Origin: a bacterium
GTDB lineage: Bacteria; UBP7; UBA6624
Direction of reading: 5' to 3'
DNA: 15,037 bases
NCBI GenBank assembly: GCA_014384545.1
Contig: JACNFQ010000029.1
Location: 1 to 15,037, forward strand
Of this stretch, positions 2,995-10,893 are shown piece after piece. Positions within the stretch are counted from its first letter, which is position 1. Every line of letters starts with the position of its first letter. Made by a program: the position numbers and the translations under genes. The notes beneath the pieces were generated by a model, which was not told the origin of the DNA, searched no databases, and saw only the letters and a list, made by a program, of their open reading frames with translations.

Positions 2995-3077
2995 GCCGGG
3001 GTGGCGGAATGGTAGACGCGCTAGGTTTAGGACCTAGTGTCCGAAAGGGCGTGAGGGTTCGAGCCCCTCCCCCGGCA
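2995..3077 (+). tRNA. tRNA-Leu, anticodon UAG
   Basis: An 83-nt cloverleaf. Acceptor GCCGGGG (2995-3001) pairs perfectly with CCCCGGC (3070-3076), followed by discriminator A3077. The D-arm contains TGGTAGACGC. The anticodon stem CTAGG/CCTAG encloses the loop TTTAGGA, giving anticodon TAG. There is a long class II variable arm, as expected for Leu. The T-arm is GAGGG/CCCTC around TTCGAGC (3053-3069). The 3' CCA is not encoded and must be added after transcription. It decodes CUA/CUG leucine codons. Confidence 0.96.
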
Positions 3078-3080
3078 AAA

Positions 3081-3199
3081 GGTCAGGAGATTCCCCCCAT
3101 GGGCGGCAGGAGTTCCCCCCCCATTGGGGTCAGGAGATTCCCCTCCATCGCCTTCAGTGGATTCCTCCCCATGGGCGTCAGGAGATTCCCCTCCATCGC
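3081..3199 (+). repeat. Five imperfect tandem copies of a ~24-nt unit
   Basis: Units lie at 3081-3104, 3105-3127, 3128-3151, 3152-3176 and 3177-3199, with lengths 24, 23, 24, 25 and 23. The core is GTCAGGAGATTCCCC followed by C/T-rich bases and CATGGGC or CATCGC. Copies 3 and 5 share a 24-base identical stretch; copies 1 and 4 share the CATGGGC ending, so the array seems to have grown partly as a two-unit (48-nt) block. It begins three bases after the tRNA-Leu 3' end. There are no spacers between units, so it is not a CRISPR. No convincing gene covers it. Confidence 0.85.
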
Positions 3200-3319
3200 C
3201 CTTTGGAATCGTGGCGGGAATGGGCGTCGGAATCGAAGAGTCGAGTCGCCTCCTAATCTGTATTGTGCTCAAAAAGAGTGAGTTGGTGGAACGAAGGGCG
3301 AACATGGAGCCAAGAAGCA
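3200..3319. other. Intergenic stretch with nothing recognised
   Basis: Between the repeat array and the sigma-operon promoter I see only short echoes of GGAATC and GAGTCGAGTCG, and no ORF with a ribosome binding site or RNA signature. It may carry upstream regulatory sites for the promoter at 3320-3328. Confidence 0.4.
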
Positions 3320-3328
3320 TGGTATAAT
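3320..3328 (+). promoter_or_regulatory. Extended -10 promoter of the sigma-factor operon
   Basis: TGGTATAAT is a perfect TATAAT (3323-3328) preceded by the TGn extended -10 element. No TTGACA-like -35 is present at 16-18 nt spacing, which an extended -10 tolerates. Transcription would begin near 3335, about 180 nt upstream of the first start codon. A TTGACA at 3354-3359 exists but has no matching -10. Confidence 0.55.
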
Positions 3329-3334
3329 CACTTT

Positions 3335-3514
3335 CTAAGCGGATGTGTTGGTGTTGACAGGGGTGTTTTTGCCTACCACCGCGAAGGATTTGCCTATTTA
3401 GGCTTTTTGCGGGGTAGTCGCTTTCTACACTACCTGGTCTTGAACAGTCAAGACCCTTGATTATTCTCACTAAGGGGTTCGCCCCTTGGCACGATCTAGG
3501 GAGGACTGTGCAAT
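3335..3514 (+). promoter_or_regulatory. Structured 5' leader of the sigma-factor operon
   Basis: Three stable hairpins can be read. (1) CTACC-A-CCGC (3373-3382) pairs with GCGGGGTAG (3409-3417), a 9-bp stem with one bulged A, enclosing a small GCCT/AGGC hairpin followed by TTTTT (3404-3408). (2) GGTCTTGA (3436-3443) pairs with TCAAGACC (3448-3455), loop ACAG. (3) AAGGGG/CCCCTT closes a UUCG tetraloop (3472-3487). TCAAG (3448-3452) can pair instead with CTTGA (3456-3460), so hairpin 2 has a mutually exclusive alternative. The Shine-Dalgarno AGGGAGGA (3498-3505) follows. No known riboswitch or 6S/SRP consensus is recognisable. It may be a cis-regulatory element or the precursor of a small RNA. 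Confidence 0.45.
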
Positions 3515-3637
3515 ATGGAAAGCGACATAAGTTATTCGCAGCGCGAGACAAGGGCTTTGGCCTGGTTCTTTATGCGGCGTATTCAGGTTGGATTAGAGAG
3601 GGTTCTTGAAGTTGCCCTTGAGGGAAGGGTAGCGTAA
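3515..3637 (+). CDS. 40-residue micro-protein coupled to the sigma factor
   Basis: Short ORF starting ATG at 3515 and stopping TAA at 3635-3637, whose last A is the first base of the sigma-factor ATG (TAATG overlap). A strong Shine-Dalgarno, AGGGAGGA (3498-3505), lies nine bases upstream, better than that of many longer genes here. The product begins MESDISYSQRE and ends VALEGRVA; the middle (WFFMRRIQVGLERVL) can form one amphipathic helix with basic and hydrophobic faces. It has no signal peptide and no cysteine. I do not recognise the family. It may be a translational coupling leader peptide, or a small protein that binds the adjacent sigma factor or RNA polymerase. The ribosome binding site and exact overlap argue for real translation; function is unknown. 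Confidence 0.6.
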   Translation: MESDISYSQRETRALAWFFMRRIQVGLERVLEVALEGRVA

Positions 3638-4515
3638 TGGTCCAGTACAACCCACTCTGGAAAAGAGCGAGAGCGATGAGAGACCTAGATAGGTCACTGC
3701 GCGAGCAAGGGTTTGACATCAACCATTCTCTGTTAGAAAGAGAAGAAGAAGACTTCTTACTAAGCCTTGCCCAAATCGGCGACGAGGAGGCGTTGGATTC
3801 CCTAGTGCGCCACAATGTGCGCCTCGTATTGGGGTTGGTCAACCAGTTCCTTGTCCGTGCAAAGCGTGTATCTGGGGAGGACCTCTTCTCTTTGGGAATC
3901 GAAGGATTTCTCCATGCTGTTCAGAAGTTCGACCGTGGTTCTGGCAATCGGCTCTCAACCTACGCCACCTGGTGGATTCGACAACGCTTGGGGCGGGGAT
4001 TGGAGACGACTGATTGGGGGGTCGTGCGCCCTCCCCCGAAAGCGATCAAGGTGTTGAGGAATCTCGCCCGTTATCTAGCTGGATGTGAAGAGAGGGGCGA
4101 TACCCCTTCCATTTCACGGATGGCTGCTGATTTGGGAGAATCGGTCCCCTCTGTTGAGAAGACACTTACTCTTATGGGCGGGTATTCTTCCCTCAACGAG
4201 CGTCTTGAAGAAGGTGGCGAAAGCCTTGAAGAGAGGTGGGGAGAAGAACCACTAGATCTTCTTGACGAAATAGAGGGTAGTGCGCTCATTGAACGCCTTT
4301 ACCTCGCCCTTGAAACACTACCAGAACTCCACAGAAAAATCATCTCCCTTCGAAGTGGTATTGGGGTGGAGAAGGTCTTATTTCAGCGCGAGATTGGGGA
4401 GATGTTTGGACTATCTCGTCAGCGTGTGGCATCGCTTGAGCAACAGAGTATGGAGATGTTGGGAGAGGTGATGGGGAAGAATCAACATGATCCCTCTCCC
4501 CAATTCGCCCATTAG
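3637..4515 (+). CDS. Divergent sigma-70 family (RpoD/RpoS/RpoH-like) RNA polymerase sigma factor
   Basis: A 292-residue protein with regions 2, 3 and 4 but no long region 1.1. Region 1.2/2.1 is around residues 32-72 (LEREEEDFLL, VRLVLGLVNQF). Region 2.3 keeps the melting motif YATWWIRQ (residues 109-116). Region 3 includes PSISRMAADLGESVPSVEKTL, and the region 4 helix-turn-helix is near residues 249-270 (FQREIGEMFGLSRQRV). Just after the conserved Gln116, the residue matching E. coli RpoD Thr440 is Gly, and the usual TIRIPVH run is replaced by WGVVRPPPKAI, so -10 recognition is probably altered. The start overlaps the micro-ORF stop; AGGGAAGGG (3621-3629) serves as ribosome binding site. It is most likely an alternative sigma factor. 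The regulon is unknown, and no anti-sigma factor of known type is adjacent. Confidence 0.85.
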   Translation: MVQYNPLWKRARAMRDLDRSLREQGFDINHSLLEREEEDFLLSLAQIGDEEALDSLVRHNVRLVLGLVNQFLVRAKRVSGEDLFSLGIEGFLHAVQKFDRGSGNRLSTYATWWIRQRLGRGLETTDWGVVRPPPKAIKVLRNLARYLAGCEERGDTPSISRMAADLGESVPSVEKTLTLMGGYSSLNERLEEGGESLEERWGEEPLDLLDEIEGSALIERLYLALETLPELHRKIISLRSGIGVEKVLFQREIGEMFGLSRQRVASLEQQSMEMLGEVMGKNQHDPSPQFAH

Positions 4516-4629: not shown

Positions 4630-4657
4630 GGCGCTCTAACCCCCCTAAACGAGCGCC
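4630..4657 (+). terminator. Inverted repeat upstream of the HD-domain gene
   Basis: GGCGCTC (4630-4636) and GAGCGCC (4651-4657) are perfect 7-base inverted repeats around a C-rich 14-nt loop, followed by TGACGCCCTTTT. It could terminate upstream transcription or act as an operator for the gene at 4711. No clear promoter was found in 4568-4710. Confidence 0.3.
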
Positions 4658-4710
4658 TGACGCCCTTTTCCCCTGAAAACCGAAGGAGGAGTGATAGGAT
4701 AAGAAAAGAG

Positions 4711-5787
4711 ATGAGTGGCACCCCAAAAAAAGGAGAAAAGGGAAAAGGAGATAAGATATTCGCTGTACGGAGGGTTTCGCTCCGAAAAACGAAGGCAGGA
4801 AAGAACTATTTAGACCTTCTATTGGCCAACAGTGAGGGCGAGATTGTGGGTAGGAAGTGGGATGTGAAAAGTAGGGATTCTTTGCCAGAGGTTGGGACAG
4901 TCATCGTAACGGAGGGCAAAGAGGATACTTATAACGATACTCCTCAGTGGATTATGACAAAATGGAAGGTTGCTGATAACAAAGAGAGAGAAGAGGCAGA
5001 GCTTGTTCCCTCTGTTGGCGGGGACCATGAAGCTAGATGGGAGAGACTGATTGAGGCAGCTAAGGGGATAAAGGCGGAGGGGCTAAGGGGGTTAACAGTT
5101 GCACTCTTTGAACAGAACAAAGAGAGTATTATGGGGGCGACAGCGGCAAAGATGATGCACAGCGCTGGTCGGGGGGGGTTGATGGAGCATGTGGACAGTT
5201 TACTGACGATGGCTAAGGGGCTGGGACCACAACTTGAGGGTGTAGATAGTGATTTGTTGGTGGCGGGCATCCTGTTGCATGACATCGGGAAAATTAGGGA
5301 AATGATGTGCGAGCCCGCTTTGGATTACACAACAGAGGGTCGGATGTTGGGGCATATTGTGATTGGATCTATGATGATTGATGAGGCGGCAAAGAAGAGA
5401 GGAATGCCCCAAGAAGAGGTCTTACCCCTTCTTCACTTGGTCGTTTCCCATCACGGTACGAAAGAGTTCGGTTCGCCCGTGGCACCGATGACCCCCGAAG
5501 CGGTTGCTTTGCACCACTTAGACAGCATAGATGCGAAACTAAACGCCATGAGTGGAAGTAAAGAGAAGGGCTTGTTTTGGCACAACAACTTGCGCCAATT
5601 TGTCTTTCTATCTCAGGAGGTCAGCAACAGTCAGGGAGAGAGCCCTGTGGATTCTGGATCAGAGAGCAACAGGACAGCCTCAAAGGAAGAGGAAGCCCCC
5701 TCAACACCCCGAACACCGACCCACCAAGGAGAGAAAGAGCCTAAGGATACCCCCTTGCCTAAGGAGGAATCGGGTGGCCTGTTTTAG
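4711..5787 (+). CDS. YhaM/CBF1-like OB-fold and HD-domain protein (probable 3'-5' exoribonuclease)
   Basis: A 358-residue soluble protein. Residues ~15-90 resemble a nucleic-acid-binding OB fold (KTKAGKNYLDLLLANSEGEIVGRKWDV). Residues ~135-290 are an HD hydrolase domain with His160 (MEHV), His190-Asp191 (HDIGK), His215 (LGHI), His247-His248 (SHHG) and Asp274 (SIDAK), the metal-binding set of the family. The OB+HD order and the EHV...LLHDIGK...GHI...SHHG series match Bacillus YhaM/CBF1, a 3'-5' exonuclease on RNA and single-stranded DNA. From about residue 300 a low-complexity Ser/Pro/Glu/Lys tail follows, which is not typical. GGAGGAG (4685-4691) is about 20 nt from the ATG, unusually far, and only AAGAAAAGAG precedes the start directly. 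The gene ends 30 nt before gyrA, so the two may be co-transcribed. Confidence 0.8.
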   Translation: MSGTPKKGEKGKGDKIFAVRRVSLRKTKAGKNYLDLLLANSEGEIVGRKWDVKSRDSLPEVGTVIVTEGKEDTYNDTPQWIMTKWKVADNKEREEAELVPSVGGDHEARWERLIEAAKGIKAEGLRGLTVALFEQNKESIMGATAAKMMHSAGRGGLMEHVDSLLTMAKGLGPQLEGVDSDLLVAGILLHDIGKIREMMCEPALDYTTEGRMLGHIVIGSMMIDEAAKKRGMPQEEVLPLLHLVVSHHGTKEFGSPVAPMTPEAVALHHLDSIDAKLNAMSGSKEKGLFWHNNLRQFVFLSQEVSNSQGESPVDSGSESNRTASKEEEAPSTPRTPTHQGEKEPKDTPLPKEESGGLF

Positions 5788-9425: not shown

Positions 9426-9995
9426 ATGACCCAAAACGAAGGCGGAACGACCGCCACCACCAATGCGAAGAATATCGCACTTACGATTCTCTTGCTCGTC
9501 TTAACTGTCGGGCTGTGGAAAATCTTGGATGCTACGGCGTCCTATATCATCGATGCTCGTGCAACATCAGCAAGTGTCAATCAAGTGATTTACGAATACC
9601 GCAATGCGGTAGGTGATGTCGGTGGCAAGATGGCAGAATTGATTGATGCTCAGATTCAAGTTGCGTCTGCTGTGGAAGAGAGTGTTCGATCGTCGAGCGC
9701 ACTTATTGACGAGTCTAAGGGACGTATTGCTTGGGCTGCCCAGATGATGGAGAACTTGTTTCCCGCTCAAGCACAAGAGAGTATTGGTGGGGTTCTTGAA
9801 CAGGCGGTAGGAACTCTCTCAAACGCTCTGGATTACCTTATGGAGCACCCTGATGATGTCAGAGGAGCAATCCAAGCTCTTATCCAAGGCATTATGGATG
9901 CGAAGCCTTTCCAAACGATGGGAGAGGGACTAGGACCTATCATGGATACTATGGTGGAGGTTGTTGAGGAGACTGTAAACCCCTGCGGGGGATAA
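9426..9995 (+). CDS. Unrecognised single-pass membrane protein with long helical domain
   Basis: A 189-residue protein of no family I recognise. Residues 1-15 are polar (MTQNEGGTTATTNAK), residues ~16-36 form one hydrophobic helix (NIALTILLLVLTVGLWKILD), and the rest is rich in Ala, Glu, Ser, Val and Met with heptad-like hydrophobic spacing (VNQVIYEYRNAVGDVGGKMAELIDAQIQVASAVEESV), suggesting an amphipathic or coiled-coil region outside the membrane. It ends NPCGG, with a single cysteine three residues from the C-terminus. The polar N-terminus and lack of a cleavage site favour a membrane anchor over a signal peptide. It stands alone: 78 nt after the gene upstream and with a strong hairpin after it. 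The strong ribosome binding site points to an abundant envelope protein; function is unknown. Confidence 0.75.
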   Translation: MTQNEGGTTATTNAKNIALTILLLVLTVGLWKILDATASYIIDARATSASVNQVIYEYRNAVGDVGGKMAELIDAQIQVASAVEESVRSSSALIDESKGRIAWAAQMMENLFPAQAQESIGGVLEQAVGTLSNALDYLMEHPDDVRGAIQALIQGIMDAKPFQTMGEGLGPIMDTMVEVVEETVNPCGG

Positions 9996-10113: not shown

Positions 10114-10893
10114 GTGGAGTCCAAATCCAAAAAGCAGATACGCCTTCCAAGAGAGACTTGGGAGGGGGATGCCACCTGGATTGAACTCCCGACTCTCTCC
10201 CAGAAATGGAAGCTCTCTTTTGCTCCTTGGTGGTGCTTGGTGCAGAGGCAAAAGGAGAGTTTTCGGCTCCGTCCTATAAGTGGTGGTATCCTTGAAGGGA
10301 GGGTGCACTTTAGGGATGGGGAGAGAGCTCTTGTCGTCCCCATCTCTTCTAGGATTCAAGGGACCCATTGGGGTTGGGGGCGAGGCTTGGTGGCAAGTGG
10401 AGCAACTCTCGGGGTAGTTGAGGGGGGTATTTCGCTCCTTCCTATCACATGGGATGGTCCCTTGGGGGTGGTCGCTTTCCTCTTACTTCTTTCTGGTCTT
10501 GTATCCGTATTCGTTGGGTATGCGGTGGGGTTGCGGGGGCATTGGATTCGGGGTTGTTGGGGATTTCTGGCTGGTATTCTCTGCTCTTGGGGGCTTCTCC
10601 AAGTGGGATCAAGTCTCGTTCCAAACAGCAAGTGGGCTTGGCTTGTCGTTGCAGGACTCGCATTTGCCCTACCCGCAACGGGGTGGATGAAGGGTGTAGG
10701 AGGTGTTTTTTCTTGGAGAGCGCTCCAGGAGGGATTCGTTGCGGGGGTCTTAGGTTTGGGATTGCGGATGGGGCTTGTGGCTTCGGGTGCGATAGAGTCG
10801 TGGGGGATTCTCTCATTTCCCCTTGCTGTGTGGGTTCTCTTGTTGGCGGTTCGATACCCCCCCCTTGTGCAAGCCCCACTTGAGAGAAAGTAG
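10114..10893 (+). CDS. Unrecognised polytopic membrane protein preceding ctaA
   Basis: A 259-residue protein starting GTG at 10114 behind AGGA (10103-10106). The first ~90 residues are soluble and rich in Trp, Lys and Arg (MESKSKKQIRLPRETWEGD, QKWKLSFAPWW, EGRVHFRDGERALVVPI). The rest has about five or six Gly/Ala/Leu/Val-rich membrane segments, for example GPLGVVAFLLLLSGLVSVFVG and WAWLVVAGLAFALPATGW. There are no His or Cys clusters typical of the copper chaperones Sco or CtaG. The stop lies 28 nt before the ctaA ATG, so it is probably the first gene of the oxidase operon and may help oxidase biogenesis, by location only. I do not recognise the family. Confidence 0.65.
   Translation: MESKSKKQIRLPRETWEGDATWIELPTLSQKWKLSFAPWWCLVQRQKESFRLRPISGGILEGRVHFRDGERALVVPISSRIQGTHWGWGRGLVASGATLGVVEGGISLLPITWDGPLGVVAFLLLLSGLVSVFVGYAVGLRGHWIRGCWGFLAGILCSWGLLQVGSSLVPNSKWAWLVVAGLAFALPATGWMKGVGGVFSWRALQEGFVAGVLGLGLRMGLVASGAIESWGILSFPLAVWVLLLAVRYPPLVQAPLERK

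Follow-up and report, generated by a model that had tools for sequence, protein, structure and literature searches.

How could a bacterium set the level of an alternative sigma factor whose gene begins on the stop codon of a 40-codon open reading frame (ORF), which in turn lies behind a long and strongly folded RNA leader? This question is raised by a locus in the window studied here, a stretch of 15,037 nucleotides that makes up an entire contig (C69) of a 1.39 Mb bacterial genome (107 contigs, 79% complete). We give about an even chance to the reading that the locus is a two-step translational gate on the sigma factor: a fold of the leader would hold back translation of the small ORF, and ribosomes that do read this ORF would open the start of the sigma gene. 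We consider this the most economical reading of the cassette. Throughout, the RNA evidence is thermodynamic prediction from one sequence, and the argument is set out below from the sigma gene upstream to the leader.

A diverged sigma factor with altered promoter contacts

The last gene of the cassette is the one whose expression has to be explained:

3637-4515, plus strand: orphan sigma-70 family factor of 292 amino acids, with regions 1.2 to 4 and no region 1.1

The product of this gene is a sigma-70 family factor of group 2/3. It scores 41.4 bits against PF04542 (cut-off 24) and 33.8 bits against PF04545 (cut-off 24.1), Foldseek finds a sigma fold in its predicted structure, and its N-terminus is too short to hold region 1.1. 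Three more specific identities were considered and rejected. Although RpoS is the top-scoring family, the score of 104.4 bits compares with an equivalog cut-off of 378.7 (TIGR02394); for RpoH (sigma-32) the score is 59.6 bits against a cut-off of 323.1 (TIGR02392, NCBIfam). The protein is also not the primary sigma factor RpoD/SigA: a separate RpoD is encoded on contig C55 of G000, and the residues that contact the -10 and -35 elements differ. The genome's further sigma-70 proteins are two, RpoD and one of ECF size, and the ECF-sized protein is the only other alternative sigma-70 factor seen in this 79%-complete genome.

In the alignment, the promoter-contact residues of regions 2.4 and 3.0, which touch the -10 and extended -10 elements in E. 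coli sigma-70, are altered, and in region 4.2 TRERIRQIE is replaced by SRQRVASLE. Because the contact residues are altered, this sigma factor probably reads promoters unlike those of the housekeeping type, and the extended -10 promoter of its own cassette is probably not among them. Altered contacts of this sort would be expected of an alternative sigma factor that needs control.

The original prediction had called the sigma factor divergent, which is correct in the sense of a diverged sequence. Over its length, the protein shares at most about 33% identity with anything in the genomes, viral contigs, phages and plasmids searched, and the 47% identity to one viral contig is confined to a short conserved stretch. 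The end branch of the sigma factor in a tree of 62 measures 6.2 changes per site (column), and the position of the sigma factor in this tree is not trustworthy because the branch is so extremely long. A phage origin was rejected: viral homologs resemble the protein no more than cellular homologs do, and its placement in the tree is of no help.

The small ORF and the start of the sigma gene

Directly upstream of the sigma gene, and overlapping it, we find the following elements:

3498-3505, plus strand: Shine-Dalgarno sequence AGGGAGGA of the small ORF, read from the sequence
3515-3637, plus strand: 40-codon ORF MESDISYSQRETRALAWFFMRRIQVGLERVLEVALEGRVA, with its ATG at 3515 and its stop codon TAA at 3635-3637
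3611-3633, plus strand: 9-bp hairpin made up of the small ORF's final eight codons, predicted at -13.4 kcal/mol

The small ORF has the character of a coding sequence. Its codon score of 7.0 can be set beside an average of 5.7 for real 40-codon pieces of this genome, and it exceeds the scores of 99.3% of spurious ORFs. Shine-Dalgarno sequences are present for both the small ORF and the sigma gene, and the two genes meet in a UAAUG at 3635-3639, where the stop codon of the first overlaps the ATG of the second (3637). This overlap lies directly 3' of the hairpin at 3611-3633, the stem of which takes up half of the sigma Shine-Dalgarno sequence (3625-3629) while the remainder (3621-3624) sits in the loop. 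The hairpin is the second strongest among 258 gene starts sampled. It is also stronger than 97.3% of synonymous recodings of its sequence; only 2.7% match it.

A stop/start overlap, together with a predicted occlusion of the downstream ribosome binding site (RBS) that upstream translation would unfold, is what characterizes a coupled gene pair, and both are found here. Two models have been proposed for translational coupling, RNA unfolding and termination-reinitiation, and short upstream ORFs have been proposed to serve in delivering ribosomes (PMC12548453). The predicted anatomy of the UAAUG and the RBS hairpin is such that it would fit both models: ribosomes reading the final eight codons of the small ORF would unwind the hairpin that these form and so uncover the Shine-Dalgarno sequence of the sigma gene, and upon the stop at UAAUG the same or incoming ribosomes would initiate the sigma factor. 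The likeness to the coupled gene pairs with a downstream-RBS hairpin reviewed in the same source (PMC12548453) lies in the stop/start overlap and in the position of the hairpin within the upstream ORF. The cassette differs from them in that the upstream ORF has only 40 codons and is itself placed behind a long-range fold, and the coupling is here a prediction.

Does the small protein matter, or only its translation? The peptide may act by itself or only deliver ribosomes. AlphaFold2 predicts the 40 amino acids as a single helix over residues 2-39 (pLDDT 91), in which residues 19-36 form an amphipathic segment, and since the ORF is also gene-like, the peptide could be the regulator, as a helical anti-sigma factor, co-sigma factor or adaptor that is coupled to the sigma gene through the overlap, with the leader being incidental. 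Precedents for such upstream partners exist: in Bacillus, SpoIIAB-SigF and RsoA-SigO are cases where the gene for a partner protein directly precedes the sigma gene and is coupled to it, an arrangement that resembles the small gene and predicted coupling seen here. The 40-residue helix differs from these partners, however, in that it matches no anti-sigma or co-sigma family, and the protein as a whole has no match to any Pfam or NCBIfam family, these included. Moreover, no relative of the small ORF was found in the phylum's three genomes, none of the 190 sigma relatives examined is preceded by an ORF for a similar peptide, and a confident single helix is a frequent AlphaFold output for short peptides. 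We therefore regard a regulatory role of the peptide with an incidental leader as unlikely.

Promoter and leader RNA

According to the two-step gate, transcription from a housekeeping-type extended -10 promoter would give an RNA with a folded leader at its 5' end. The elements of this upstream part are:

3320-3328, plus strand: extended -10 promoter TGGTATAAT (TGnTATAAT, with TATAAT at 3323-3328), recognized in the sequence
3335-3514, plus strand: 5' leader RNA of about 180 nt, judged by fold z-scores
3374-3416, plus strand: leader hairpin 1, with core pair probabilities of about 1 and a local z of -3.6
3436-3455, plus strand: leader hairpin 2 of 8 bp, terminator-like in the scan, with a tail that is not U-rich
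3471-3488, plus strand: leader hairpin 3 with a UUCG loop, from sequence and fold prediction
3489-3511, plus strand: hairpin holding the Shine-Dalgarno sequence of the small ORF, with AGGGA in the loop and its last bases paired

The promoter has no good or recognisable -35 element. In 320 kb of this genome, counting both strands, TGnTATAAT occurs at only two sites, one of which is this promoter, and from its position we would expect the transcription start near 3335-3337. The fold of the resulting RNA is stronger than that of shuffled sequences, with z = -3.7 for 3340-3530 against dinucleotide shuffles and, in a separate set of shuffles, z = -3.85 for 3335-3530; for 3370-3530, a segment whose ends were picked after the fold had been seen, z in this second set falls to -6.1. 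Control leaders from the same genome (n = 55) have a mean z of -0.26 and a standard deviation of 1.39. Three of them lie below -3.5, among them one with a tRNA and one that is a coding stretch absent from the gene list, apparently an EF-P-like reading frame. A second very strongly folded leader was seen in this genome (L238 19190-19476, minus strand, z about -4.2); it consists of several GC-rich hairpins 5' of a gene and is likewise without an Rfam match.

The sequence bears out the parts list of the original prediction, in that the extended -10, the leader of about 180 nt, the 40-codon ORF with its Shine-Dalgarno sequence, the stop/start overlap and the sigma gene all lie where it had placed them, and the three hairpins that it described are present as hairpins 1 to 3. 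The UUCG loop is closed by a G-C pair and not by the extra-stable C-G. A pair of mutually exclusive stems had also been proposed, and here the fold prediction disagrees: the stem apparently meant, GGUAGU/ACUACC at 3413-3418/3429-3434, can be drawn but is 6.8 kcal/mol worse, and its predicted occupancy is about zero at every transcript length tried. With the alternative pair not predicted to form, a conformational switch as the signal of the leader finds no support. Two further candidates were rejected. Transcription attenuation would have to use hairpin 2, the sole terminator-like stem, which has no U-tract; chance alone would give 2.4 sites of this kind. The longer ORFs that overlap the leader (3027-3551 on the minus strand and 3263-3460 on the plus strand) have codon scores that are non-coding or near-neutral.

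Is the leader a member of a wider class of regulatory RNA? At gathering thresholds, Rfam detects only tRNA in the window, and the leader has no match up to E<=10. We also find no second copy of it in its own genome, nor in 193 genomes and 32 loci searched with a single-sequence covariance model. Being compact, deeply folded (z of -6), built of several stems and unmatched in Rfam, the leader could be an undescribed ligand-binding riboswitch or a protein-binding leader that controls initiation or termination, but there are no relatives showing a conserved sequence, no alternative fold is populated and no terminator is convincing, and we think this quite unlikely. Distinctly unlikely, in our estimate, is the idea that the leader represents a new class of regulatory RNA specific to its lineage, which would sense a signal and control the highly diverged sigma factor with the 40-codon ORF as a relay.

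A predicted long-range helix over the start codon of the small ORF

The first step of the proposed gate is the pairing of the leader with the beginning of the small ORF:

3417-3427 with 3516-3526, plus strand: long-range 11-bp helix, pair probability about 0.9

The 3' arm of this helix (3516-3526) consists of the last two bases of the start codon (U and G) and codons 2-4, and the helix as a whole encloses the hairpins at 3436-3455, 3471-3488 and 3489-3511. By occluding the start codon, it would keep initiation on the small ORF low and probably adjustable. Of random 180-nt genomic stretches, 0.1% pair with the start region at 11/11 positions. When codons 2-9 are recoded synonymously the excess is weak, 5.9% of the recodings folding as well as the start helix. 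Apart from the long-range helix, the local accessibility of the start is at the 71st percentile and not unusual, so that it is the helix by itself that would make up the first gate.

It could be argued that these folds are incidental, and that what precedes the sigma gene is just a short gene and an unexceptional long 5' UTR, in which the leader regulates nothing. The cassette is known from a single genome, overlapping short genes are frequent in compact genomes, and some other leaders fold equally; against this stand several independent excesses over controls, and we judge this explanation very unlikely. An RNA thermometer of the rpoH kind, which would free the start codon at high temperature, is highly improbable: burial of the start codon by pairing inside the ORF does recall E. 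coli rpoH, but the helix stays paired with a predicted probability of 0.87-0.96 across 10-65 C (in the energy model, to which this result is limited), and NCBIfam does not class the sigma factor as RpoH (59.6 bits against about 323).

For the two-step gate, these results leave the question of what would open it. The original prediction had suggested leader-controlled or coupled synthesis of the sigma factor. The anatomy for this is there, in the form of the buried start codon, the UAAUG and the RBS hairpin inside the small ORF. The signals proposed for it fare worse, with no Rfam match to support a metabolite and no melting up to 65 C in the energy model to support temperature. In our view, temperature and a known metabolite riboswitch are less probable than ribosome availability or an RNA or protein acting in trans. 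The two structures that matter most had both been overlooked, namely the helix that buries the start codon of the small ORF and the hairpin that covers the sigma RBS. The cassette is seen in one genome, no relative has the same arrangement, and we consider the two-step gate plausible.

Comparison with leader-controlled sigma genes

Leader control of stress sigma genes is well known from E. coli rpoS and rpoH, where structured mRNA limits translation. The likeness to the present cassette is that a structured mRNA region would restrict translation of an alternative sigma factor. The differences are that it is an intervening small ORF that would be gated here, that there is no sequence relation, that the modelled helix stays closed on heating, and that the sigma factor scores below the curated cut-offs for both RpoS and RpoH. 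If the two-step gate is true, it is a compact design in which a leader gates not the regulator's own start but a tiny ORF that opens the regulator, and it marks an alternative sigma factor with altered promoter contacts and hence probably with a regulon of its own. As a cassette without relatives, it is a one-genome prediction, from a phylum with almost no sequenced members.

Genomic setting

Where did the cassette come from? Our comparison within the phylum covers three genomes, namely the window's genome and two others (G001 and G002, 86% and 62% complete) from the same family and a different genus. The gene order ABC transporter, ABC transporter, tRNA-Leu, GyrA is common to all three. What differs is the distance from the second ABC transporter to GyrA, which is only about 200 bases in G001 and G002 against about 2.9 kb in the window. 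The larger gap holds the tRNA-Leu, an array of 24-nt repeats, the leader, the small ORF, the sigma gene and a gene for a YhaM-like HD-domain protein. Two of these serve as landmarks:

2995-3077 in the window, plus strand: tRNA-Leu, between ABC transporter and GyrA; its counterparts in the relatives (L197 12628-12710 and L198 8469-8551) are on the opposite strand
4711-5787: HD-domain protein similar to the exoribonuclease YhaM, with 156.8 bits against a cut-off of 460

Relative to G001 and G002, the tRNA-Leu locus of the window is a local inversion plus an insertion, and has gained about 2.7 kb. In both relatives the syntenic locus is present and empty of the cassette, and neither the sigma gene nor the HD-domain gene was found anywhere in these two incomplete genomes. 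The HD-domain gene was gained together with the sigma cassette or beside it. Integration targeted to the tRNA was rejected, as the 3' end of the tRNA-Leu has no duplicate in the window.

Some smaller features of the window are recorded here. Directly 3' of the tRNA-Leu (3081-3200) lies an array of about five units of 24 nt, which alternate as 48-nt pairs, and the array has no other copy in the window's genome. Two proteins encoded at 9426-9995 and 10114-10893, neither of which matches a Pfam family, have gene-like codon usage. Finally, an inverted repeat GGCGCTC/GAGCGCC followed by CCCTTTTCCCC is found 3' of the sigma gene (4630-4680); it is a possible terminator, which would make the small ORF and the sigma gene a two-gene unit.
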